Source: Amylibacter sp. | GTDB lineage: Bacteria > Pseudomonadota > Alphaproteobacteria > Rhodobacterales > Rhodobacteraceae | Length of the DNA stretch: 36,520 nucleotides | Direction of reading: 5' to 3' | Assembly: GCA_021775375.1 (NCBI GenBank) | Contig: JAJFHY010000073.1 | Span: 1 to 36,520 of the forward strand | Shown: positions 9,416 to 35,153 of the stretch, one piece after another | How the letters are laid out: the number at the start of each line of letters is the position of its first letter | How positions within the stretch are numbered: position 1 is the first letter of the stretch | Position numbers and translations under genes: made by a program | Notes under the pieces: model-generated | The model's database searches: none | What the model saw: only the letters and a program-made list of their open reading frames with translations | What the model was told of the DNA's origin: nothing

Positions 9416-10669
9416 TTATGAAACTATCTTTTTCATAGCCTTTAAAAATGCCTGCACTTCCTGCTTGGTATTATAATGGCACATTGACACACGAATGCAG
9501 CTATCCAGCCCAAGCGGGGTTAGAATATTGCCTGAATAGTGATCGGCGCGGCGTATGTGAACGCGAATACCGTTTTCAGACAGTTTTGCTACAACATCAC
9601 CGGATGGCTGGCCTTTGACCACGATAGAACAAAGCCCTTCACGGTGTGGATTGTCGATACCGCCGATCACTGTGATTTCCGGCATGTCGGCAAGTCCTGT
9701 TTCGCCACCGACACCGTGTAACATGGCGTCCACCAGCGCATTTTCCTGTGCGGTAATGGCGTGGCCCGCCGCGACAACCTTATCACGCGCGGTGGTAGCA
9801 TTAGACACGCGCCCGCCCAACCATTCGAAATATCCCACAACATCTGAAAATGTCGCATAAGAGCCTGCATCGCGGGTGCCCAGTTCCCAAGGTGCGTTGG
9901 GCGCGCCGATCAGTGTGTCATGGGGCATGGCCGCCAGACGATCTGAAATCCAAGCAATACCGTAGCCATGCCGCGAAAACACTTTGTAGGGCGAGATTAC
10001 ATAACCATCGATGCCGTAAGCATCAATGTCCAACCCGCCGTGGGCCGCATGCTGAATGCCGTCGACGATAATGATGCAATCGGGTGAGACATCGCGGATA
10101 GCTTTTGCAATTGCGCCTACGTCAACCGACATTCCGGTGACGGGTGAGGTGTGCAGGATGGTCGCCACGCGGGTATCTGCCGTGATGTGGGGAAGGTAAT
10201 CCTCAACACCAACAGTGCCTGTTGCATCGTTATGACTGGCAGAAACGTAGGATTTACCGGCAATTTCCGCCCATCTGATACAAGCGCTGCGTGATGCGGG
10301 ATGTTCTAGCGTGCTGCCCAGAACCTCACCGCCCTTGGGCGTGCCTAAACAAGCGGCACTAATCAGGCGAAACAGAAGTTCTGTGCCGCTTTCGCCGACA
10401 AAAACCTGACCGCCATTGGCATTCAGAAAGGTGCGGATGCTGTCTTTGGATGCCGCAATCATGGATCCGGCTTGTTGAGATGCAGGGTTATCGCGGCCCT
10501 GATTGTCGGGGATGGCAGCATATTGGGCAGTGGTTTCAACAACTGATTTCAGGGTCAGAGCGCCACCGGCGTTTTCAAAGAAAATACGCGCACCCTGATC
10601 GGGACAGCTATCGACCAGACAGAACCTGTCGCGGACTTCGTCCATTATGCTTTCAACGGTGGTAATCAT
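9416..10669 (-). CDS. Class V aminotransferase / cysteine desulfurase-like PLP enzyme
   Basis: This is a 417-residue fold-type I PLP enzyme. The cofactor lysine is in SPYKVFSRHGYG. The upstream IIIVDGIQHAAHG holds the aspartate and histidine that contact PLP in this family, and STLEHPASRS is the conserved Glu-His region. The closest recognisable relatives are selenocysteine lyase/cysteine desulfurase-like aminotransferases (CsdA-like, isopenicillin N epimerase-like), but the catalytic Cys loop is not obvious, so desulfurase activity is not assured. It is divergent from a LysR-type regulator over a short intergenic region, a layout in which the regulator commonly controls the enzyme gene. Substrate unknown. 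Confidence 0.85.
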   Translation of the reverse strand: MITTVESIMDEVRDRFCLVDSCPDQGARIFFENAGGALTLKSVVETTAQYAAIPDNQGRDNPASQQAGSMIAASKDSIRTFLNANGGQVFVGESGTELLFRLISAACLGTPKGGEVLGSTLEHPASRSACIRWAEIAGKSYVSASHNDATGTVGVEDYLPHITADTRVATILHTSPVTGMSVDVGAIAKAIRDVSPDCIIIVDGIQHAAHGGLDIDAYGIDGYVISPYKVFSRHGYGIAWISDRLAAMPHDTLIGAPNAPWELGTRDAGSYATFSDVVGYFEWLGGRVSNATTARDKVVAAGHAITAQENALVDAMLHGVGGETGLADMPEITVIGGIDNPHREGLCSIVVKGQPSGDVVAKLSENGIRVHIRRADHYSGNILTPLGLDSCIRVSMCHYNTKQEVQAFLKAMKKIVS

Positions 10670-10700
10670 TAGATGTTCCTTAAGCAGTGTTTCAAGAAAG

Positions 10701-10732
10701 CTCTACCACCAAATCTTCAAATGATTTAGAGT
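10701..10732. promoter_or_regulatory. Candidate LysR operator between divergent genes
   Basis: AAATC (10711-10715) and GATTT (10723-10727) form an inverted repeat with a 7-base spacer. It lies within a wider CTCTA...TAGAG pair. It lies 30-60 bases from both start codons, the usual position and size of a LysR-type binding site. This rests on symmetry and position only. Confidence 0.45.
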
Positions 10733-10763
10733 GTAATTGTTATATCAACCAAAAGGAAATGTT

Positions 10764-11624
10764 TTGGATATTCGATTTCTGGAAAGTCTGGTTGCGGTTG
10801 TTGAAGGTGGGTCAATTTCTGCGGCCGCACGCGGGCAGGGACTGACGGCAACCGCTGTCAGCCAACGCATCCGTGCCTTAGAGGTCGTGTTTGGTGCTGA
10901 TCTTTTGATCCGTTCGGGGCATGCCGCCGTACCAACCAAAGCCTGCCTGAACCTGCTGCCGCGCGCCCGTGACTTGATTTTTGAAGCCGCAATGTTGAAA
11001 CGCGATTTTGGTAAAGACGCATTATCGGGTCCGTTTCGGATCGGGGCCATTGAAACCGCCCTGTCAGAACTGATCCCGTCTGTGGTCAAAACGATTTCGG
11101 ACAATGCACCTGATTGCCAGCTATCGATCAAGCCGGGAACATCGATCCAGCTTTATGAAATGCTGGAAAATGGCCAGATTGATCTGGCTATTATAGTTGT
11201 ACCACCCTTTGCTATTCCAAAGGCCTTTTGTTTGGATAAACTGGCTGTACAACCCTATGTTTTGATCCAAAGTATCGATAATGGTCCTGTCACCAGAGAC
11301 AGGCTGATATCTGAGCCTATCATCCTATACGACCGTAAATCATGGGGTGGGGCACCTGCGTGGAAATGGGTTACAGAATATGCAAATCCACAGAATATCA
11401 TGTGTGATCTGGATGGGTTGCGTACCATTGCCGCAATGGTGGAAAGCGGTCTGGGGATAGCATTGTTGCCCAGCTGGCCGGAATTGCTGGACAGTAAGGC
11501 AAAGCTTTCATTTACCGCACCGGTGCCACCGATTTCAGACCGGAATATCGTTTTGCTGGGTAAAGCTGCGGAAAAGCATGACCCGCTTTGTGGCCTCATT
11601 CGTAAATGTTTGTTGCAGCACTAG
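10764..11624 (+). CDS. LysR-family transcriptional regulator
   Basis: The N-terminal winged helix-turn-helix is clear (LESLVAVVEGGSISAAARG then TATAVSQRIRALE), followed by a periplasmic-binding-like effector domain from about residue 80. I set the start at TTG 10764, giving LDIRFLESL..., because AAAGGAAA lies six to seven bases upstream and LysR proteins normally begin a few residues before this helix. Length (286 aa) is normal. It is divergent from the class V aminotransferase gene and probably regulates it. Its stop codon directly abuts the stop of the convergent TPR-sulfotransferase gene. Confidence 0.9.
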   Translation: MDIRFLESLVAVVEGGSISAAARGQGLTATAVSQRIRALEVVFGADLLIRSGHAAVPTKACLNLLPRARDLIFEAAMLKRDFGKDALSGPFRIGAIETALSELIPSVVKTISDNAPDCQLSIKPGTSIQLYEMLENGQIDLAIIVVPPFAIPKAFCLDKLAVQPYVLIQSIDNGPVTRDRLISEPIILYDRKSWGGAPAWKWVTEYANPQNIMCDLDGLRTIAAMVESGLGIALLPSWPELLDSKAKLSFTAPVPPISDRNIVLLGKAAEKHDPLCGLIRKCLLQH

Positions 11625-13400
11625 CTATTCATAGCCGAACCGTTCAATCCACGGCTGGATCCGGTCGTTATATGCTTTGAAATATGATTGGTAGTTTTTC
11701 CATCTGTATGTTGCATCTTTATAAAGCGGTTGCACCACCTGACTGTAACTTGGCGTGTTGATCTTACCGCGCTCTATGGCTGTTTTTTGATATTCGTTCA
11801 GGCTTTCTTCCCATTCCAGATCCAGAAACTGCAATAGTTTTTCAATCTCATTTGGCATATCAACAACGAGATCTTCATATCTGATCATGTGGAATTTCAA
11901 ATCATATCGTTTTTGTGACAACCACCAAGTTTCCATTACGGCACAATAAAAATCTATTATCCTTTCTAAATCCACCATATTTGCCATCTGCGGGTTCAAT
12001 TTAAAATATTGCATATAACAACTTAGGATACAGTCATACGGGTGCCTGATGGCCAAGATGAATTTAGAATGTGGAAATACGCTATGGATAAGTGGGGTTT
12101 CGATAGCGTTTAATGGCAATTTATCTATGCAAACCTGATTGGATGTACGGTTTTCAATGTGTTTGTCCAACTCGGCATAATATTGTGCCTGCAAATATGA
12201 GGCTCTTTTGGGATCAATGCTTTCGATATCTTCTAGGTTGAAAAAGCTATCCAACTCATTTCGAATTGCCGCAACCATTGGCTGCTCTTCCGCCACGACA
12301 ATATTAGTGTGACTGCGCAATATAGTGTCTAACAATGTTGTACCCGAGCGTGGAAAGCCAACAAGAAAACAGGGTGTGTTTTGGGTGGTATCGGTATTAT
12401 CAGCCACGTGCGGCAGAGCGGGTGCATCTTTCAACTCTTGTAATGCAGAGGTAATATTTGCGAAGTATGCATCCGGGTCGGCTTGTATATAATCAGAGCT
12501 TTGCTTTGCTTTCGTGTTCATCATTGAAAATGCTGAATATGCATCATCGAATAACCCGATTTTATCGCATGTCTTTCCTTTCAACTCATAGAAAGCAATG
12601 ACGCGCTTTTGGATTAAGTTATCCGGTGTGATCTGGGCGATTAAAATTTTTGCCTGCTCAAAATTCTTTTCCCGAAACTCCAGCAATGCAGCATAATATA
12701 ATATATTTGCGTTGCTTGCTGTGGGGGAGCTTTTTGCTTCTACCAATGTGCGGGACAATCCAGCAAGATTATTTGTTTTTTCATAAAAGTCACAAAGACT
12801 TGTTCTAAATTTCAAATCGTTAGGGTCAATTTGAAGAGCGTGTTGAAAACTTTGTTCAGCAGCTTCAATTTCACCATTGCCGTTCAATGCTATCGCAAGA
12901 TTGTTATGTAAAGTTGCATTGTCAGGTTCAATATTTAATGCTTTTTGATAACATTTGATTGCCGCGCTTAAGTTACCACTTTGTTTCAGCGCGCCGCCCA
13001 GATTATTATAGGCCTGCACCGATTTTGGATCAATTTGCAAAGCACGGTTAAAACATTGGGTCGCTGGGTCTATCTGGCCCTGTTTAATATATGCAACTCC
13101 AAGAAGGTTATGCAAAAATGGTGTTTGTGGATACTGTTTTAATAAGGCATTTCCGCGCTCTATAACCTCGTGCAATCTACCTTGATTATAAAGCTCAACC
13201 ACAGCTTTGATTTGATCTTGAGCGGACGTTGCAGTTCTTGGTTCATGCAATGCGTTCAAAGCCGCAAGGCCAAGCTGTGCAGGTTTGTTATTCGGGAACT
13301 TCATCAATACAGAAAGATACTGTTTTTTGGCTTCAGCAATTTGCCCGTTTTTAGCATGCTTTCGCGCGCTTAATAATAATTGCTGTACAGATAACTGCAT
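11625..13400 (-). CDS. TPR-repeat sulfotransferase (copy 1)
   Basis: This 591-residue fusion has tetratricopeptide repeats over roughly residues 5-310 and a C-terminal sulfotransferase domain. TPR units show the canonical pattern (e.g. AYNNLGGALKQSGNLSAAIKCY). The 5'-PAPS loop is GFPRSGTTLLDTILRSH near residue 350, and the 3'-phosphate site is AIRHPYDCILSCYMQ near 450. There is no signal peptide, so it is probably cytoplasmic. Related TPR-sulfotransferases occur in many marine and soil bacteria with undefined acceptors. A close paralog lies at 16431-18368 on the same strand, with a glycan-type trio between them. The upstream 45 bases are also conserved between the two, suggesting duplication with regulatory sequence. 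Confidence 0.88.
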   Translation of the reverse strand: MQLSVQQLLLSARKHAKNGQIAEAKKQYLSVLMKFPNNKPAQLGLAALNALHEPRTATSAQDQIKAVVELYNQGRLHEVIERGNALLKQYPQTPFLHNLLGVAYIKQGQIDPATQCFNRALQIDPKSVQAYNNLGGALKQSGNLSAAIKCYQKALNIEPDNATLHNNLAIALNGNGEIEAAEQSFQHALQIDPNDLKFRTSLCDFYEKTNNLAGLSRTLVEAKSSPTASNANILYYAALLEFREKNFEQAKILIAQITPDNLIQKRVIAFYELKGKTCDKIGLFDDAYSAFSMMNTKAKQSSDYIQADPDAYFANITSALQELKDAPALPHVADNTDTTQNTPCFLVGFPRSGTTLLDTILRSHTNIVVAEEQPMVAAIRNELDSFFNLEDIESIDPKRASYLQAQYYAELDKHIENRTSNQVCIDKLPLNAIETPLIHSVFPHSKFILAIRHPYDCILSCYMQYFKLNPQMANMVDLERIIDFYCAVMETWWLSQKRYDLKFHMIRYEDLVVDMPNEIEKLLQFLDLEWEESLNEYQKTAIERGKINTPSYSQVVQPLYKDATYRWKNYQSYFKAYNDRIQPWIERFGYE

Positions 13401-13722
13401 TTTTTATTCTCTCTTATTTAGCAAGACAGTGACACAAACGAAAACGTAATTAAATATGATAAAGACGAATATTCTATGTGCCACAATTAAAACCTGCACC
13501 TATTGTGCTATAACCTTTCAATATTAAATCCGGATTGTAGTCGAGATTGTGATATAAGCGTCACGGCGATAACGCGGCATTGGTCAATGGGTGCTGGGCG
13601 CAAGCTTTCTGTTGCTAAACTCAAGTGTAGGAAGCTACAGTTGAGCGAAAAATCAAAGCTTTGGTAAATGCGGTTTTGATGGGGCGGACGGGACTGGATA
13701 CGTTTTGAACAAAAGCGTTAAA
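13401..13722. other. Intergenic region between TPR-sulfotransferase 1 and gtrA
   Basis: No gene is supported in this ~320-base divergent intergenic region. It contains the block CACAAA...TATTCTAT at 13433-13477 that resembles the block upstream of TPR-sulfotransferase 2, and a CACAAT/ATTGTG inverted repeat beginning near 13482. Promoters for both flanking units presumably lie here. Confidence 0.4.
13433..13477 (-). promoter_or_regulatory. Upstream block conserved with TPR-sulfotransferase copy 2
   Basis: Read on the plus strand, CACAAA..GAAA....AATT.AAAT ends in TATTCTAT. The same ordered words occur at 18412-18454 in front of the paralog, at similar distance from its ATG. Conservation in non-coding DNA beside diverged coding sequence suggests a shared promoter or operator. 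Confidence 0.4.
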
Positions 13723-14124
13723 ATGAAACAGGAAACAAGAAGCATAGTGTTTCGTTTTGCTGTTGTAGGCACGATCGTTGCGGCCTGTTATGTAATTTTT
13801 TACCTGACACTTTTGGCGCTGGGTCTCTCTCAACCTTTTGCAAATATAATAGCGTTTCTTACGGCTGTTGCCATTCAGTATGTCGGCCAGGCACTTTGGA
13901 CATTCCGTCGCCCTTTGGCTATACCCACACAAATTGGCCGTTTTCTTGGAACAATCGGATTGGGGCTGGTTGTCTCTGCGCTGATTACAGGCGTTCTTGG
14001 CCCTTCATTCGGATGGTCAAGTTGGGTGTCAGCCGTGTTGGTGACGCTTGTTCTTCCCGTTCAAAATTTTATTTTCTTCAGAATTTGGGTGTTTACTGAA
14101 ACAGAAGCTTCATCGGAGAGTTGA
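13723..14124 (+). CDS. GtrA-family membrane protein (putative lipid-linked sugar flippase)
   Basis: GtrA-like proteins are small four-helix membrane proteins, thought to flip undecaprenyl-phosphate-linked sugars across the inner membrane. Four hydrophobic segments are visible (FRFAVVGTIVAACYVIFYLT, FANIIAFLTAVAIQYVG, FLGTIGLGLVVSALITGV and SAVLVTLVLPVQNFIFF), with the family-typical phenylalanine-tryptophan pattern around LWTFRR. The ATG at 13723 begins just before the first helix. A TTG 18 bases upstream is an alternative. Its TGA overlaps the ATG of the methyltransferase, so it is the first gene of a coupled three-gene unit. Confidence 0.85.
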   Translation: MKQETRSIVFRFAVVGTIVAACYVIFYLTLLALGLSQPFANIIAFLTAVAIQYVGQALWTFRRPLAIPTQIGRFLGTIGLGLVVSALITGVLGPSFGWSSWVSAVLVTLVLPVQNFIFFRIWVFTETEASSES

Positions 14125-14879
14125 TGGCACATATTTATTCAAACCAGTTTTTCGACTATATAGACGCGGGCGCAAAATCTTCGGCGCAACACATGATTAG
14201 TGTAGTTCAGCCATTGCTGGAAGTAAGAAGTATTGTGGATCTTGGCAGCGGGCGGGGCGTTTGGCTACGGGAATGGGCTGCTGCAGGCGTGGCTGACATT
14301 ACCGGTGTAGACGGCGACTATGTGGACCGAGAAAACCTTGCTATCCCTACAGATGCTTTTCACGCAACAGATCTGACCAAACCATTGGATCTTGGACGTC
14401 GATTTGATCTTGCACAAAGCCTGGAAGTTGGCGAGCATCTGCCTGAAACTGCGGCCAACATATTGGTCGACAGCCTGACAAAGCATAGTGACCGGGTTCT
14501 GTTTTCAGCTGCGGTGACAGGGCAGGGCGGCGAATTTCATATCAATGAAAAGCCTTTGTCTTTTTGGCAGGATATTTTTGCCGAACGGGGTTATACGGCC
14601 TTTGATTGCGTTCGCCCGCATTTGAAGTCTGTGTGGGATGTGGAGCCTTGGTATAAGTATAATACGATTTTATATGTGAATAAAGCGGGTCTAAAGGGCC
14701 TGCCTGAAGAGGTGCTGATAACAGAGGTTCCGGTTGGGGCGCCGGTTCCGAATGGTGGAAATGCATCGTGGCGTCTACGTCGGGCAATTGTATCTTTATT
14801 GCCGCGCAGTATGGTGACATGGATCGCACAGATGAATGCAGCTTGGAAAGTGCGTAGGTTGAAACGGTTGATTAAATGA
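14124..14879 (+). CDS. SAM-dependent methyltransferase in Gtr-like operon
   Basis: This is a 251-residue class I methyltransferase. The SAM motif is SIVDLGSGRGVWL near residue 35, followed by TGVDGDYV (acidic motif II) and a SLEVGEHLP motif typical of Methyltransf_23/11 proteins. No membrane segment is present. GGAGAG lies a few bases before the ATG, which overlaps the gtrA stop (TGATG). Its own stop overlaps the next start (ATGA). In canonical gtr cassettes this middle position is held by the GtrB glycosyltransferase, so this operon would modify a sugar or lipid acceptor differently. Substrate unknown. Confidence 0.85.
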   Translation: MAHIYSNQFFDYIDAGAKSSAQHMISVVQPLLEVRSIVDLGSGRGVWLREWAAAGVADITGVDGDYVDRENLAIPTDAFHATDLTKPLDLGRRFDLAQSLEVGEHLPETAANILVDSLTKHSDRVLFSAAVTGQGGEFHINEKPLSFWQDIFAERGYTAFDCVRPHLKSVWDVEPWYKYNTILYVNKAGLKGLPEEVLITEVPVGAPVPNGGNASWRLRRAIVSLLPRSMVTWIAQMNAAWKVRRLKRLIK

Positions 14880-16303
14880 CTGTGGGCACTACGGAAGCAC
14901 ATACGATGAAATCTAATGTACCGTTCATGTTGCTTTGTACGATCGGGCTAACTTTCGCGGTGCTGATGCTGGCTTCTGGCCTACAAGTGTTGGACCCAAT
15001 GGTCCGTCATGACGATTTTGGGGCATTGCTGGCTGATCCGACAGATTTTTATGTCAAAACCCTGGAGGAAGGGCGTTGGTTGAATTACTGGTGGCACCTG
15101 CGGGGATGGGTGACACCCGCTTGGATCAACTTTTCAGTTTATCAATTTTTCTGGGCAATTTTTGCCGGTGCTGCTGCTGTGAATGCATGTGGCAAAGAAG
15201 AACCGTTTAGATATGTCGCCGCTTTGGCATTGATGATCGTCGTTTCACTTCCCGCTTTGCTGATATCCGTGTGGTTCAATACGCTTCTTCCCGGTCTTGG
15301 TTTAGTGGCTTTATTTGCACTTCTGGCATCATTCCTGCGCCCCGCAACCATGCGTTGGTTGCTGCTGCTCTTTGTTCCATTAACACTTATGGCCTATACA
15401 ACTTTTCCGCTTTTATTATTAACGGTCTGCTTGACCACGCGGGATTTGCGCCGTTCTTGGTGGGATCTGCTGACCCTTATGGCAACCTTTGTCATCAGTT
15501 TCGCTTTAGGCTTGCTTGTGATTTATTCTCTTAATTATATGGAACATGGGGTTTTTGGTATTTCGATTGCAAACTGGCGCAATCCTACACCGCCGCATGA
15601 TCTGGCGTCTGTAATTGCCAACTTGGGTCTGGTTCTGGAGTTTTTCAAAGAAACGGCTTTGACGATTGCATTCGAGAATACAACTATGGTGACTATATTT
15701 GTTTTGGTTCTGACAGGCAGCCTTATATATCTTGCGCGTGTTGAGCCTTGGACGGCACTTTACATCTTTGCCGGTTTGTTTGCAGGTATTGGTCTTCTGA
15801 GTTTACAGATAATAATGACAGGCGTGATTACGCCTGCGCGTGCCGTAAACTTTGTCTGGGTTTTATACAGCGTTTTATGTGTTCGTGTTGCTGTTGTTTG
15901 CCATAGTAAGGGCAGGGTTCCAGCCAATTTGGCATGGAGCTTCCTGTTGATTACCATCACTGTCTATTTGATATGGATCTGGGAGCGATATTTTATATAC
16001 ACATATTGGCAAGATGAAACGCGGGCACTGGCAGTGCAGGCAGGAACCGGTGCGGGTCCCATTTATGTGATCGGTTCGTACAAAGCTCTTAAATCTGAAA
16101 GCAAGGTCGGCATTATGGGGCCGCGCGGCTTGCAGTTACGCTTGAAATACCTGACGGGACGTACAGTTTTTGTTTGCGATAGAACACCTGACGCATGTGA
16201 AAACGTATCTGCGGATGCACTTTCCGGCTTGGTTGTACCCGTGCCAGAGGTGCGGCAAATGCAAGATAGGACTGAAATCATTCTGCCCCCGGTCACAGAG
16301 TAA
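14876..16303 (+). CDS. Polytopic membrane protein resembling GtrII/GT-C glycosyltransferases
   Basis: The protein has 475 residues with about ten to eleven hydrophobic helices and a soluble C-terminal part of roughly 80-100 residues. After the first helix comes MVRHDDFGALLADP...GRW, an acidic-pair-then-GRW arrangement like the first external loop of GtrII-type and other GT-C enzymes, which use lipid-phosphate sugars. Position after gtrA and a methyltransferase, with a four-base ATGA overlap, supports a role in O-antigen or cell-surface glycan modification. Family assignment rests on topology and the acidic loop, so it is tentative. A short AAGTGC/GCACTT hairpin lies at its 3' end without a T-tract. 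Confidence 0.6.
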   Translation: MTVGTTEAHTMKSNVPFMLLCTIGLTFAVLMLASGLQVLDPMVRHDDFGALLADPTDFYVKTLEEGRWLNYWWHLRGWVTPAWINFSVYQFFWAIFAGAAAVNACGKEEPFRYVAALALMIVVSLPALLISVWFNTLLPGLGLVALFALLASFLRPATMRWLLLLFVPLTLMAYTTFPLLLLTVCLTTRDLRRSWWDLLTLMATFVISFALGLLVIYSLNYMEHGVFGISIANWRNPTPPHDLASVIANLGLVLEFFKETALTIAFENTTMVTIFVLVLTGSLIYLARVEPWTALYIFAGLFAGIGLLSLQIIMTGVITPARAVNFVWVLYSVLCVRVAVVCHSKGRVPANLAWSFLLITITVYLIWIWERYFIYTYWQDETRALAVQAGTGAGPIYVIGSYKALKSESKVGIMGPRGLQLRLKYLTGRTVFVCDRTPDACENVSADALSGLVVPVPEVRQMQDRTEIILPPVTE

Positions 16304-16430
16304 GTGCTTCACTAAGGTGCACTTAAAGGTCCATAGGGTGTATGCTATGATTTTCAATATGAAACCCACCCAACACGCGATCCTTAATAGTTGCCTGTTT
16401 TGATAGGGCTACAGTAAGTGGTAATTGTGC

Positions 16431-18368
16431 CTACTCGTACCCAAATTTTTTGATCCAAGGTTGGATTTGTTTGTCATATTTCGAAAAGTAATCCCGATAG
16501 TTTTCCCATCGATAAGCGGCATCTTTATATATTGGTTGTACGACTTGTCTGTAACTTGGGGTGTTTATTCTGCCTCTTTTGAGCGCCGTTTTTTGATATT
16601 CTTTTAGGTCTTCTTCCCAATCCAATTCCAGAAAGTTTAAAAGAGCACCAACATTATGGGCCATGTCCACGACAAGATCTTCATATCTGATAATTTGATA
16701 ATCCAAGTGATATCTTTCTTGGGAAAGCTGCCATGTTTGCATTGTGATACAATACAGTTCAACAATCCGATCCAGATCGACCATATTTGACATTGCTGGG
16801 TTTGGTCTGAAGTTTTGCATATAGCAACTTAGAATACAGTCATATGGATGTCTTATCGCCAAAATAAACTTGGATTTTGGGAAAATAGTATTCAAAATTG
16901 GCGCATTTAATGCATTAAGCGGCATTTTATCGATACATATTTTAGTCATCTGATCGGGGTTAGTTTGCTTGTCTAGTTCTTTAAAATAGATCGATCGCAG
17001 TTGTGAAATCCTATCCGTACTAAGGGATTCTAATTCTTCTATGGCCACATACCCTCCCAATGCTCTACGAATATTCGCAGCCATTGGTCCTTCTTCGACA
17101 ACAGTTATCTGGGAATGGCTGCGAAGAATTGTATCGAGCAATGTTGTCCCGGACCGTGGAAATCCGATTAAAAAACAAGGCGTGTTCTTATGTGTCGAGG
17201 TTTCATTAATAGATTGCGGTAAAAGCGGGGCTGCATTTTTTATATTTTTCAATGAGTCGGCGGCTCTGTTAAAATATGCTACTGGATTTGTTTGATTAAA
17301 TTCTATGCTTTGCGAAATTTCTTTATTCATGTCTATAAATGCATCAAATGCCATATCGGGCATTTCAAGCTTGTCAAAAGTTTTGCCTTTCAATTCATAA
17401 AATGCAAGCAGTAAACTTTTGAACAGATTGTCTGTTTCGGTATTCTCAATGTGTATTTTTGCGCTTTCAAAATCCTTTTTCCGAAAATCAATTACCGCTT
17501 TATAATACAGAATATTCGCATTATTTGAATCAATACGGTTTTCGGCAAGAGAGAGCGTGTCGGATAAGTCGTTAATATTATTGGTTTTTTCGTAGAAATT
17601 ACATAGATTTACGAGATATCTTAGCTGATCAGGTTGTTCTGCAAGTGCATTTTGGTAACATATTTTCGCGCGGTCAATTTCACCCGTTGCTAAGAAAACA
17701 TTGCCTAGATTATTCTGTGTTTCGGCATTTTTAGGGTCAATTTCTAAAGCTTTTTGATATGTCGCGAATGCGGCTTTTAATTGTCGCGTATTTTTAAGAA
17801 CACTGCCTAAATTGTTAAATGCATCAATAAAATCCGGTTTTAAAGCAATGGCGTCTCTGAAGCTTTGAATAGATGCGTCACTGTCTCCGATTTCTTTTTG
17901 GGCAATTCCCAGATTATTGTGTATTTCGGCATTTTTAGGATCAATCTTTATAGCCTTTTGTAAAAACGCGATTGCCTCAGCCCAATTACCAATTTCAATA
18001 GATGTATTCCCAAGGTTTTTGTGGGCATCGACTAGATTGGGATCAATAGTTAACGCTTTTTCAAAGCACTTTATTGCATCTTTGAATTTACCTGTTTCCT
18101 TTAAAATTCCTCCGATATTATTGTGTGATTTCGCATTCTGGGGGTCAATTTCCAAGGCCGAGCGGAAACAATCTATTGCTGCATCGTAGTCTTTCATACC
18201 TGCATGTGCCGCACCTAACAGATTATGTAACATCGCTACTTGCGGGTAGTTCTCTGTCAGTGCGGTAACGTATTCTATGACATCTTTTAGTTGCCCGTTT
18301 TGGTAGAACCCTATTGCGGTGGTAATTTCATCTTGTGTGGGATGTGGGTATTGTTGTGCGGGGGGCAT
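16431..18368 (-). CDS. TPR-repeat sulfotransferase (copy 2)
   Basis: This 645-residue paralog of the 11625-13400 protein has about eight TPR units over residues 10-370 and a C-terminal sulfotransferase domain. The PAPS loop GFPRSGTTLLDTILRSH and the 3'-phosphate site AIRHPYDCILSCYMQ are identical to copy 1, and both end in I(Q)PWI..FGYE. It has more TPR units than copy 1, many matching the consensus almost exactly (e.g. NAEIHNNLGIAQKEIGD), suggesting recent repeat expansion. It converges on the GT-C-like gene. The acceptor is unknown, and a surface polysaccharide is one possibility. Confidence 0.88.
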   Translation of the reverse strand: MPPAQQYPHPTQDEITTAIGFYQNGQLKDVIEYVTALTENYPQVAMLHNLLGAAHAGMKDYDAAIDCFRSALEIDPQNAKSHNNIGGILKETGKFKDAIKCFEKALTIDPNLVDAHKNLGNTSIEIGNWAEAIAFLQKAIKIDPKNAEIHNNLGIAQKEIGDSDASIQSFRDAIALKPDFIDAFNNLGSVLKNTRQLKAAFATYQKALEIDPKNAETQNNLGNVFLATGEIDRAKICYQNALAEQPDQLRYLVNLCNFYEKTNNINDLSDTLSLAENRIDSNNANILYYKAVIDFRKKDFESAKIHIENTETDNLFKSLLLAFYELKGKTFDKLEMPDMAFDAFIDMNKEISQSIEFNQTNPVAYFNRAADSLKNIKNAAPLLPQSINETSTHKNTPCFLIGFPRSGTTLLDTILRSHSQITVVEEGPMAANIRRALGGYVAIEELESLSTDRISQLRSIYFKELDKQTNPDQMTKICIDKMPLNALNAPILNTIFPKSKFILAIRHPYDCILSCYMQNFRPNPAMSNMVDLDRIVELYCITMQTWQLSQERYHLDYQIIRYEDLVVDMAHNVGALLNFLELDWEEDLKEYQKTALKRGRINTPSYRQVVQPIYKDAAYRWENYRDYFSKYDKQIQPWIKKFGYE

Positions 18369-18411
18369 AATATTCCTACATTATCTTAGGTATGGATTTT
18401 CAGGATACTGT

Positions 18412-18454
18412 CACAAAATGAAAGCAATTTAAATCAAAGTATACAGTATTCTAT
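18412..18454 (-). promoter_or_regulatory. Upstream block conserved with TPR-sulfotransferase copy 1
   Basis: This is the counterpart of the block at 13433-13477: CACAAA...GAAA...AATTTAAAT...TATTCTAT. It begins about 44 bases before the ATG of copy 2. The function is inferred from conservation only. Confidence 0.4.
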
Positions 18455-18489
18455 AGAAAATCTGTGAGGGCGCTTTTCGACAATTACTA

Positions 18490-18574
18490 CTGGGCCGCAC
18501 GGCACCAATCACTCGGGATGAGCTATTCAGTCAGTCGTCAGATAAATATGTAATCATTGGTGCTGTGCGCAGTC
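18490..18574. repeat. Imperfect inverted repeat next to direct-repeat module A
   Basis: CTGGGCCGCACGGCACCAAT (18490-18509) is an imperfect inverted match to ATTGGTGCTGTGCGCAG (from 18556). A ~46-base loop lies between. This could mark the end of a mobile segment or form a long hairpin. Confidence 0.4.
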
Positions 18575-18765
18575 TCAAGCTAACCAGTCTGGGCCAAATT
18601 TCCCTGTTTAACAGGGAAATAACAGGGAATTTGTGCTATTTTGGCATAAAATCGTAAAATATACCGTGATTACATACGAATTAACAGTGACTTACGCATG
18701 ATTTCCCTGCTGCAGTTAACAGGGAATTTAGTTGGACCGAACAGGGAATGATTTGTTAAATCAGG
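18556..18765 (+). repeat. Direct-repeat module, copy A (AACAGGGAA boxes)
   Basis: It starts with ATTGGTGCTGTGCGCAGTC, identical over 19 bases to 33888-33906, followed by GCTAAC.AGTCT.GG. A series of TTCCCTG and AACAGGGAA boxes then follows in the same order as copy B, including the pair TAACAGGGAAAT(T)AACAGGGAATTT. The module contains no gene. Copies A and B have the same orientation and lie on either side of the sox region. Confidence 0.75.
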
Positions 18766-18767
18766 GA

Positions 18768-19004
18768 TTATGAATTCCAGCTATTGTAACGCTCAAATGT
18801 ATCTTCAATCCCGTTGTCTTCATCATCCTCGTCAACGGCCTGATCAAGAGTAAGCAATGTCATTGCAAACCCATCATACTGGTAAAGGGTTTGGGCCGAG
18901 AGTTCTTTCCCAAGCGGCTTGCGAAGCCAGTCCTCGGGATCGATTGCTTCTATGTTGGTCCAGTCCCCAGGGTACACGCAGCACCCCCGCCAACACCTCA
19001 CCAA
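18768..19004 (-). CDS. Hypothetical protein or gene remnant
   Basis: This unrecognised 78-codon ORF opens at a TTG. The C-terminal two thirds (DPEDWLRKPLGKEL, then an acidic DEDDEDNGIEDTFERYN) looks like genuine protein, while the first residues (VRCWRGCCVYPG) do not. It is best read as a short hypothetical gene or the 3' end of a broken one. It abuts repeat module A, consistent with a rearranged junction. Confidence 0.35.
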   Translation of the reverse strand: MVRCWRGCCVYPGDWTNIEAIDPEDWLRKPLGKELSAQTLYQYDGFAMTLLTLDQAVDEDDEDNGIEDTFERYNSWNS

Positions 19005-19144
19005 AAGGCCACAGAGCGCGGGATTGGGTGGAGGTTCCGACAGTTTTCTTCACAGTAGTGGGTTTCTCTTAGCTCCTGCCAAGGTCATTTCAGGATAGTA
19101 CAGCGTGCATGCAGCTATACAGCCACTTTAATCACGAGAGACAT

Positions 19145-19312
19145 TTAGAGATCAGATAATCCATCAAGCAAAAGCGTGTAACTACTCTCACGGAGTGGTT
19201 CAATTTCTGCGCCGTATAATGATGATGCTGGTATGCCTTTTGCGGCGCGCTCAAGTATGTCTAACAACACCCCATATAGGCGTTTCTCGAAGCCTTTCGT
19301 TGAGTGCTTCTA
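19145..19312 (-). pseudogene. 3' remnant of an unidentified gene beside soxT
   Basis: About 55 codons are open with coherent protein character (KGFEKRLYGVLLDILERAAK ... LRESSYTLLLDGLSDL) and end at TAA. The frame is closed upstream by a TAG and has no start codon. It lies between the repeat module and soxT. I do not recognise the family. It looks like the tail of a gene cut during insertion of the sox region or later decay. Confidence 0.4.
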
Positions 19313-19316
19313 AATA

Positions 19317-31518: not shown

Positions 31519-32466
31519 CTATTCAAATTCCATTTGCTCAAAAACACGCCCTGCGTTTTTTGTAGCGAGTTCTTCGTATGTATCTAGATGCTTGTACGGG
31601 GATTGATCCACATAATATGCATCCGCCAACGATCCACCATTGTCTAAGTATTCGCCAATCTTACCGCGTAGATATTCTAAGTAGCCCTTGGTGTAGCGTC
31701 TGACCTGATCCATATTAGTCGGATGTCCATGGCCGGGAATGACAAATGTGGCATTCAACGTTTCGAATTTTGCATCCCACGTTTCGATCCATTCCAATGT
31801 GTTCGTGTGTTCAAAGATCGGTAGCATACGCTCATGAAAAGCCATGTCGCCAGCAATAACCAAACTTTGCTCTGGCAGCCATATAACGATATCACCTGGG
31901 CTGTGGGATGGCCCAAGATAGCGCGCTTCGATTTTTATCCCGCCCATTTCAACGATATATTCATCCTCGAATGTTTCATCTGGTAAAACGACGGTTGTTT
32001 TATCTGCACGTTCTTTGATGCGCGTCTGTGCAGAACGCAAAGATTGTGGCCCGTATTCCTCAAATTCATGAGCGGCATCTATATGGGCTACGATCTTAAC
32101 ACCTTGTTCGGCCCAATATGAATTACCAAGCATGGCGTGACCTTGGCCATTCTCATTGAACACAAGTTTCACAGGCTGACTGGTAACAGCTTTAATTTCT
32201 TTGTGCAGTGCCTGGGCTAGCAAATAGGATGCACCACCATTAACAACTACTACACCATCATTTGTGACGATGAATGTCAGATTATTATTGTGGCCTGCGT
32301 TCTCATAGGTTGGCGGAGCGGTTGCTCCGGTGGCGGAAAAAACATTTGGGATAAATTCGACTGGTTTTGAATATAGAAGGGAGCCTTCGTATTGATCCGC
32401 AATATCTTCACTTGAGGAAGCAGGAACTGCGACCAGTATAGCGATCGTTGCTGCAATATAATTCAT
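31519..32466 (-). CDS. soxH: SoxH-like periplasmic metallo-beta-lactamase-fold protein
   Basis: It has 315 residues from ATG 32466, which has AGAGGTTT upstream and opens into a signal peptide; the track start lies inside the previous gene. The fold is MBL-type, and the length fits Paracoccus SoxH (about 317 aa). The canonical HxHxDH motif is replaced by NENGQGHA at residues 104-111, so the usual first zinc site is changed. Later ligand positions (GPSHSPGD H188, AGDMAF D207, PGHGHP H246/H248) remain. It follows the soxG-like gene with a one-base gap. Activity unknown. Confidence 0.68.
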   Translation of the reverse strand: MNYIAATIAILVAVPASSSEDIADQYEGSLLYSKPVEFIPNVFSATGATAPPTYENAGHNNNLTFIVTNDGVVVVNGGASYLLAQALHKEIKAVTSQPVKLVFNENGQGHAMLGNSYWAEQGVKIVAHIDAAHEFEEYGPQSLRSAQTRIKERADKTTVVLPDETFEDEYIVEMGGIKIEARYLGPSHSPGDIVIWLPEQSLVIAGDMAFHERMLPIFEHTNTLEWIETWDAKFETLNATFVIPGHGHPTNMDQVRRYTKGYLEYLRGKIGEYLDNGGSLADAYYVDQSPYKHLDTYEELATKNAGRVFEQMEFE

Positions 32467-32467
32467 G

Positions 32468-33379
32468 TTAAACCTCTGAGGTAAATTTATAGGCATCGCC
32501 ATTGCGTTCAACATAGCCAATACCATTGCCATCAAGATGGTAACCAATGATTTTGGTCTTCTCTAAAGCCAATTTATCGAGTAACCTTACGCGTGTTTGC
32601 ACCGCTAAATCGCGATCTTGATCAGACCCTGATGGCCACTTTGGACGTTCAAATGCAACGTGGTGATTTACGATACTATCGCCAATAACCATTACGGATT
32701 CTGACCCTGCATGTATTTCATAAGACATATGGCCAGGGGTATGCCCAAAACTGGCATGGGCTGCCACACCTAGCATAACCTCTTGCCCATCTTCGACAAA
32801 AGAAATTTGTTCTGCGATAGACGCAAGGCGACGCTCAGCTCCTACAGCAAAAGAGGTTAATCTTTCACCAATTGTACTGACTGTATTTGGGTTAATCCAA
32901 TAATCCCATTCAGCCTTGCCAATCATATAGGATGCTTCTGGGAACAATGGATCATCAAAATCATCCAGCAAACCCCATAGGTGATCTGGATGTGCGTGGG
33001 TGAATACAATATCCGTAATATCATTAGGTATTAGACCCAACGCATCCAACGACTCTATAAGGACCCCAGAATTAGGAGAAAAATTAGGCCCTGATCCAAC
33101 ATCAAACAACACATTACGATCGCCATTCTGTAGCAGTGTTACATTGCAAGGCGGGGTTAGTGTTTCAATAGATTGATTGTACTTTTTAAGGATCGGTTCC
33201 AACTCGTCCTGAGGCATGGGGCCAAAGGTAAACTCACCTGGTAGGATTAAGGAGCCATCACTCACGGAATGAACAGTCATATCACCCATGATAGTGCGAC
33301 TGTAACCAGTATTCGGCAAACCTGCAGCAATTATGCTTGCAGACGTACCCTGTAGAAACCTACGACGTGTATGGAGCAT
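32468..33379 (-). CDS. soxG: SoxG-like Tat-exported metallo-beta-lactamase-fold hydrolase
   Basis: It has 303 residues, the size reported for Paracoccus SoxG, and a Tat signal (HTRRRFLQG). The zinc motif THAHPDHLWG (H128, H130, D132, H133) is complete, and GHTPGHMSYE and VIGDSIV supply the later ligands. SoxG is a predicted periplasmic zinc hydrolase of unproven substrate in the sox cluster. Unlike Paracoccus, where soxFGH run in one direction, this pair is on the opposite strand. A candidate SoxR motif lies upstream. Confidence 0.72.
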   Translation of the reverse strand: MLHTRRRFLQGTSASIIAAGLPNTGYSRTIMGDMTVHSVSDGSLILPGEFTFGPMPQDELEPILKKYNQSIETLTPPCNVTLLQNGDRNVLFDVGSGPNFSPNSGVLIESLDALGLIPNDITDIVFTHAHPDHLWGLLDDFDDPLFPEASYMIGKAEWDYWINPNTVSTIGERLTSFAVGAERRLASIAEQISFVEDGQEVMLGVAAHASFGHTPGHMSYEIHAGSESVMVIGDSIVNHHVAFERPKWPSGSDQDRDLAVQTRVRLLDKLALEKTKIIGYHLDGNGIGYVERNGDAYKFTSEV

Positions 33380-34323: not shown

Positions 34324-35153
34324 GGCACTGTTGCATTAACTTGATCACGGCGCAATCTGGCTAGAAGCCTAGCGAGTTTAAGTTGCCAAACCAAACAGCT
34401 TATGCAGATGTTCAATTTCGCCGAGCGGCCCAGATTTACGTTGATGAATGTGGTTGTTCATGATGGTACGGATGGTTTCGATACACTGTAGCGTGGCTTT
34501 AGTTGATCGCAATGTTTTAAAGCCACGCATGGGATTAAGCAGTCTCTTCAAGGCCGAGTGATCCCCCTCGATCCTGTTGTTCAGATACTTCCGGTTGACG
34601 TGGCGAATTTGATCACCTGGATCACGATGTCGGTTGAACTCCGCCAAAACCTTGCGATAGCTGTGGGCCTTGTCTGTTATGATCACCAGGGGCTGATACA
34701 AACGGGCATTGCCCATCGCCTGACGCAGGAAAACCCTTGCAGCATTGGAATCTCGTCGAGCCGTTAGACGAAAATCGATCAACTTTCCGTGCTGATCTAC
34801 CGCCCGCCAGAGGTACCGCCATTTCCCTCCAACCCGGATATAGGTTTCATCAATGTGCCAAGTCTGTCCCCGCCAATCACGGTGGCTGAAGTTACGCTTG
34901 GAAAGCTCTGGGCCAAATTTAATAACCCAACGATAGATAGTGGAGCCATCGACTTCGATGCCGCGTTCTGACAGCATGTCGCGCACATCCCTATAGGACA
35001 GGGCATAGATAGCGGCAATACCAACGCACAGCCAACAGTATGATTTCAGGTGGAAAGTGATGGCGTTTAAAGGGAGAACGGCGTGACATTTATGAACCTC
35101 GGCAACAGGAAATGGCAAATATCAACAAGTCGGATACTTAATGCAACAGTGCC
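34324..35153 (-). mobile_element. Intact IS6-family insertion sequence
   Basis: The 830-bp element has perfect 16-base terminal inverted repeats, GGCACTGTTGCATTAA (34324-34339) and its complement (35138-35153), around a single transposase gene. The size and the GGCACTGTTGCA ends are typical of IS6/IS26-type elements. The 8 bases on each side differ (ATATTTTT versus CTATCTAT), so no target duplication is seen, which suggests an adjacent deletion or a recombination event after insertion. Confidence 0.9.
34378..35118 (-). CDS. IS6-family DDE transposase
   Basis: The 246-residue transposase catalyses replicative transposition. The catalytic triad is visible as D90 (WHIDETYIRV), D149 (IITDKAHSY) and E184 (RIEGDHSALK), with the classic 35-residue spacing and a lysine seven residues after the glutamate. 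A helix-turn-helix (LSYRDVRDMLSERGIEVDGSTIYRWV) precedes it. The frame is intact, opening with a TTG in this call, so the element may be active. Confidence 0.93.
   Translation of the reverse strand: MPFPVAEVHKCHAVLPLNAITFHLKSYCWLCVGIAAIYALSYRDVRDMLSERGIEVDGSTIYRWVIKFGPELSKRNFSHRDWRGQTWHIDETYIRVGGKWRYLWRAVDQHGKLIDFRLTARRDSNAARVFLRQAMGNARLYQPLVIITDKAHSYRKVLAEFNRHRDPGDQIRHVNRKYLNNRIEGDHSALKRLLNPMRGFKTLRSTKATLQCIETIRTIMNNHIHQRKSGPLGEIEHLHKLFGLAT

Follow-up and report, generated by a model that had tools for sequence, protein, structure and literature searches.

A trio of Gtr-type genes without GtrB beside two sulfotransferase genes in Amylibacter sp., probably an adjoining of unrelated sets

Do two sulfotransferase genes that bracket a trio of putative glycosylation genes form a single sulfate-decorating machine with it? 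The question is raised by a stretch of Amylibacter sp. DNA of 36,520 nucleotides (GenBank assembly GCA_021775375.1, contig JAJFHY010000073.1), which is contig C235 of a 3.2-Mb draft genome in 264 contigs and is referred to here, at its full length, as the window. Two tetratricopeptide repeat (TPR) sulfotransferases, ST1 and ST2, flank the genes for a GtrA-family protein, a methyltransferase (MT), and a glycosyltransferase of the GT-C fold, and an earlier note on this DNA had put forward a working model in which the trio makes a lipid-linked glycan, or decorates one, and the TPR enzymes sulfate the glycan or a carrier. We consider it probable, at about 0.72, that the five genes fall into two unrelated sets lying next to each other by coincidence, namely, a Gtr-type cassette that has a built-in methyltransferase and lacks GtrB, and two independent cytoplasmic sulfotransferases that depend on 3'-phosphoadenosine-5'-phosphosulfate (PAPS). 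The five open reading frames are all present, with the positions and gene names that the note had given them:

11625-13400, minus strand: ST1, TPR and Sulfotransfer_3 domains (Sulfotransfer_3, 5.6e-32), with the PAPS loop GFPRSGTTLLDTILRSH starting at about 12359
13401-13704 (304 bp), no strand: gap where relatives carry GtrB, with no GtrB remnant
13705-14124, likely start 13723, plus strand: GtrA-family small membrane protein (PF04138, 3.2e-15)
14121-14879, likely start 14124, plus strand: S-adenosylmethionine-dependent methyltransferase, MT (PF13489, 2e-8)
14876-16303, plus strand: predicted GT-C-fold glycosyltransferase, from an AlphaFold model and structure matches, without a Pfam match
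16431-18368, minus strand: ST2, TPR and Sulfotransfer_3 domains (Sulfotransfer_3, 1.6e-28), paralog of ST1

From sequence comparison, the trio is best read as a copy of a mobile roseobacter cassette of the Gtr type, without its GtrB. The order GtrB (a glycosyltransferase of family 2, GT2), GtrA, MT, and GT-C is found in 13 roseobacter genomes, comprising the Amylibacter relatives G024 and G005, which alone among the genus members searched have the GT-C, and eleven other genomes of the family, and the carriers include Sulfitobacter sabulilitoris and Cribrihabitans marinus. Sulfitobacter sp. OXR-159 has the quartet on two plasmids, where the genes are annotated as GT2, GtrA family, methyltransferase, and hypothetical protein, and one of these plasmid copies lies near IS66 and IS256 transposases. 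The cassette GT2 is GtrB-like by PHROGs (8e-97), and the window MT is 55-76% identical to the MTs of complete cassettes. In G375 the methyltransferase is missing from the order (GtrB-GtrA-GT-C), several GT-C homologs occur on their own, and G318 combines one full cassette with one isolated GT-C. In G005 (C43, L036 7973-9465), the cassette GT-C lies in two overlapping frames with an apparent frameshift. A search of positions 13401-13704 and of the flanks of the window trio gave no trace of a GtrB remnant. The window operon is incomplete, since its usual first gene is missing, and we therefore file it as a GtrB-less derivative and not as a complete Gtr-type member.

The GtrA frame opens at TTG 13705, with ATG 13723 as the likely start because homologs align from residue 7, and the MT frame opens at TTG 14121, with ATG 14124 as the likely start. 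Successive genes share a few bases at their junctions (TGATG and ATGA), so the trio is fairly called translationally coupled, as the earlier note had it. Hydropathy predicts four transmembrane segments in GtrA, about nine in GT-C, and none in MT. The GtrA protein also has a GtrA-like PHROG match (2.5e-4), and a role as polyprenyl-phosphate-sugar flippase is proposed for it; a PDB sequence search with the methyltransferase gave zero matches. For the GT-C protein, Pfam yields nothing relevant at E values up to 10. Its AlphaFold model (predicted local distance difference test score of 72, predicted template modeling score of 0.72) matches PglB (E value 1e-3, probability 1.0), AftA (0.92), and ArnT (0.90) among the best hits of a Foldseek search against the PDB, all three of which are GT-C enzymes. 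The global TM-scores are low and therefore support the GT-C fold class but not a specific reaction. Across five aligned GT-C homologs, RxDD..EGRWLNYWWHLRG is conserved in the first extracytoplasmic loop. The label "GT-C-like" in the earlier note thus finds no support in Pfam but fits the predicted fold, and the trio, as the tail of a conserved cassette ending in a predicted GT-C enzyme, remains suggestive of periplasmic sugar addition, as the note had read it.

In the complete copies, GtrB would charge polyprenyl phosphate with a sugar at the cytoplasmic face, the methyltransferase would probably methylate the lipid-linked sugar before flipping, GtrA is thought to flip the lipid-sugar across the membrane, and the GT-C enzyme would attach the sugar to a surface glycan on the periplasmic side. 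The scheme follows the published gtr model (PMC11127046, PMC3688519) in everything but the methylation. For the window copy, the lipid-sugar would come from a GtrB encoded elsewhere, on contig C18 or C171 of the same genome, or the cassette would be impaired. C18 carries a lone GT2 that is 45% identical to the cassette GtrB. C171 (L104 709-4161) has GT2, methyltransferase, and GtrA genes in a row and then the open frame of a large membrane protein, cut off by the contig end, which together make a second, different gtr-like operon. Another GtrB may also sit in the part of the genome missing from the assembly, which is 91% complete. We rejected the C18 GT2 as the relocated GtrB of the cassette, as its identity is only 45% compared with mostly 70-82% among cassette GtrBs; its best match is in G017 (74%), a genome in which we found no GT-C homolog. 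In Salmonella, the gtr operons of family II have a gtrB deletion in common and an intact gtrC, and help from a second gtr operon has been proposed for them, with reference to Shigella work on interchangeable GtrA and GtrB (PMC3688519). This precedent, taken together with the GtrB-like genes on C18 and C171, makes a supply of GtrB in trans plausible here.

The closest known systems on the cassette side are the gtrABC O-antigen glucosylation operons of Salmonella, Shigella, and their phages, with the three components GtrB, GtrA, and GT-C. The cassette shares with them a GtrA-family protein and a family-specific GT-C in one operon, a GtrB in the complete relatives, a mobile distribution, and a precedent for a gtrB-deleted operon with intact gtrC (PMC3688519), but differs in the order GtrB-GtrA-MT-GT-C with an embedded methyltransferase, in a GT-C without a Pfam model, and, for the window copy, in the lack of GtrB. 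The GT136 extracytoplasmic three-component pentofuranose systems also combine a lipid-linked sugar, a flippase, and a GT-C enzyme, but employ a MATE flippase and a polyprenyl phosphoribose synthase where the roseobacter cassette has GtrA and GT2 (PMC11127046). A contig classified as viral carries a distant GT-C homolog (L128 2527-3921; 25% identity, with the EGRWLNY motif preserved), which may be a phage-borne relative, and near it lie a possible tail gene and a large frame that, judged by eye, has parts resembling a methyltransferase and a glycosyltransferase. A phage origin of the cassette was considered and not adopted, this single distant homolog not being conclusive.

The two sulfotransferases are paralogs with identical PAPS loops, as recognized in the earlier note, with 54% identity and the 17-residue loop GFPRSGTTLLDTILRSH common to both, and they differ mainly by three additional TPR units in ST2. 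Both match the PF13469 profile (112 and 101 bits for ST1 and ST2, cutoff 27) and have the 5'-phosphosulfate binding loop GFPRSGTTL, and a hydropathy scan predicts no transmembrane segment in either. The genome encodes an adenosine-5'-phosphosulfate kinase for PAPS supply and contains nine Sulfotransfer_3 matches. The nearest solved sequences include tyrosylprotein sulfotransferases (TPST; E values of about 1e-7 to 1e-8), and the loop Arg, Glu, Lys, and Ser columns align with a TPST chain. In TPST2, these are active-site residues, with Glu as the base. A Glu base, however, is also present in NST1 and HS3ST1 (PMC11625862). In a Foldseek search, the TPR part of ST1 resembles the superhelix of the protein-acting O-GlcNAc transferase (OGT) and SPINDLY, a result dominated by the TPRs and uninformative on the catalytic domain. 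Compared with human TPST1/2 and Xanthomonas RaxST, ST1 and ST2 have the PAPS sulfotransferase domain and the aligned columns in common but possess an N-terminal TPR array. The likeness to OGT and SPINDLY, in which the superhelix precedes the transferase domain, is an analogy only, the catalytic domain being unrelated. Judging from these similarities, we lean toward a protein as the substrate. ST1 and ST2 are best read as duplicated, cytoplasmic, PAPS-dependent sulfotransferases with a history of their own and outside the glycosylation pathway, and the TPR superhelix would probably select a protein or another cytoplasmic acceptor.

In the phylogenetic tree, ST1 groups with a G024 sulfotransferase and ST2 is sister to both (supports 98/96 and 97/98), and therefore the duplication is older than the split between this genome (G000) and G024. 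The G024 ortholog of ST1 (70% identity) follows the same aminotransferase (AmT5) and LysR genes and is the sole strong match in G024, where no counterpart of ST2 was seen. Other TPR-sulfotransferases have unrelated and variable neighbors (acetolactate-synthase-like, GcvP, HSP90, porin, and TonB receptor genes), and zero ST2 homologs were found on plasmids at 1e-40.

No ST1 or ST2 homolog lies within about 6 kb of the 13 complete chromosomal cassettes, and a scan of 20 GT-C loci for loop motifs (PRSGTT, P-loop) found zero. In G024, the nearest genome with both parts, the ST1 ortholog and the cassette are on different contigs, and the DNA similarity to the window extends from 9434 to 13413, stopping at the ST1 start codon. 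Co-conservation of the five genes in other genomes, by which the earlier note itself had proposed to judge its model, is not found, which speaks against the model: the reading of the trio as periplasmic sugar addition is supported, and the membership of the TPR enzymes in its system is not. At the level of whole genomes (14 versus 17 of 396 in the family), the overlap is 0 where 0.6 is expected (P of about 0.54), so this co-occurrence is uninformative, and we dropped it as proof of independence. The note had also drawn the sox cluster of the window into a theme of sulfate use, but the sox block is a separate unit that the genus conserves; in G024 it shares a contig with ST1 at a distance of about 325 kb, and neither ST2 nor the trio adjoins it in the relatives read.

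A functional link between cassette and sulfotransferases is thus unlikely, and one five-gene system that makes and sulfates a glycan or its carrier is very improbable, even though the genes adjoin and are intact, PAPS can be supplied, and undecaprenyl-phosphate-linked sugars face the cytoplasm before flipping and are in principle within reach of a cytoplasmic enzyme. No other cassette has a TPR-sulfotransferase nearby, both parts are unlinked in G024, the sulfotransferases and the trio are on opposite strands in separate transcription units, and the sulfotransferases have no predicted transmembrane segments, whereas the GT-C product arises in the periplasm. We give even less credence to a recruitment, in this lineage alone, of ST1 and ST2 to the GtrB-less cassette, where they would sulfate either its acceptor glycan or its lipid-linked (methyl-)sugar on the cytoplasmic side; if true, this would be a sulfated variant of the Gtr seroconversion system. 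Several points nevertheless weigh against our reading. The bracketing of the trio by two paralogs is neat, and a single genome gives no measure of how likely it is by chance; the co-occurrence data are too sparse to exclude an association; GtrA, MT, and GT-C are intact despite the loss of GtrB, for which only a GtrB acting in trans would account; and for what is methylated, for the flipping, and for a GtrB in trans, we rely on inference.

A joining of unrelated pieces at or near the ST1 start in the 264-contig assembly is improbable as well. It would fit the end of the G024 similarity exactly at that start (13413), the distance of the sox block from ST1 in G024, and the lack of the first cassette gene at the same junction, but ST1 and ST2 have no long stretch of identical DNA in common by which an assembler could be misled (a 300-nt repeat at 70%), and rearrangements around accessory genes are common. 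The trio could also be a decaying fragment that lost GtrB when the segment moved, leaving the pathway dead. This is unlikely, although less so than a chimera: GtrB is missing here and present in the 13 complete relatives, and the split GT-C frame of G005 means that decay occurs in the genus, but the three frames are long and intact with conserved motifs and overlapping junctions, the genome has other GtrB-like genes, and Salmonella operons keep an intact gtrC after gtrB deletion (PMC3688519). The alternative that we take most seriously, while still favoring a protein acceptor, leaves the two sets apart and makes a polysaccharide the substrate of ST1 and ST2, sulfated in the cytoplasm by a pathway that has nothing to do with the trio. 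A weak NoeE similarity in NCBIfam (8.5e-9, far below its cutoff) and the finding of the glycolipid sulfotransferase NodH with PF13469 (PMC11625862) are consistent with it; the superhelix, as in protein-acting enzymes for the TPR part only, and the aligned tyrosylprotein sulfotransferase columns argue for protein, and none of these fixes the substrate.

What remains after the comparison is a recurring, partly plasmid-borne roseobacter GT2-GtrA-methyltransferase-GT-C cassette, whose last gene encodes a putative GT-C enzyme unrecognized by Pfam and annotated as "hypothetical protein." Naming it lets annotators read surface-sugar modification from these loci, and with GtrB-less copies known here and from Salmonella, GtrB sharing between operons becomes testable.

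The window further contains, as the earlier note had listed, the sox cluster and a third sulfotransferase:

1881-2762: third sulfotransferase (Sulfotransfer_1, 9.5e-36)

This protein belongs to a Pfam family other than that of ST1 and ST2 and has no NCBIfam match. The gap between ST2 and the Sulf_transp gene (18369-19316, 950 bp) holds short broken frames only and is possibly decayed coding DNA; a Pfam search of it for a transposase remnant gave zero matches. An IS6/IS240-type transposase (DDE_Tnp_IS240, 4.5e-50) lies at 34378-35118, beyond the sox cluster and near the right end of the window. After the sox cluster, at 31519-33379, are two adjoining, slightly overlapping genes of the metallo-beta-lactamase fold, the first of which (31519-32547) has a homolog that is enclosed by the sox cluster in G024, G008, and G005.

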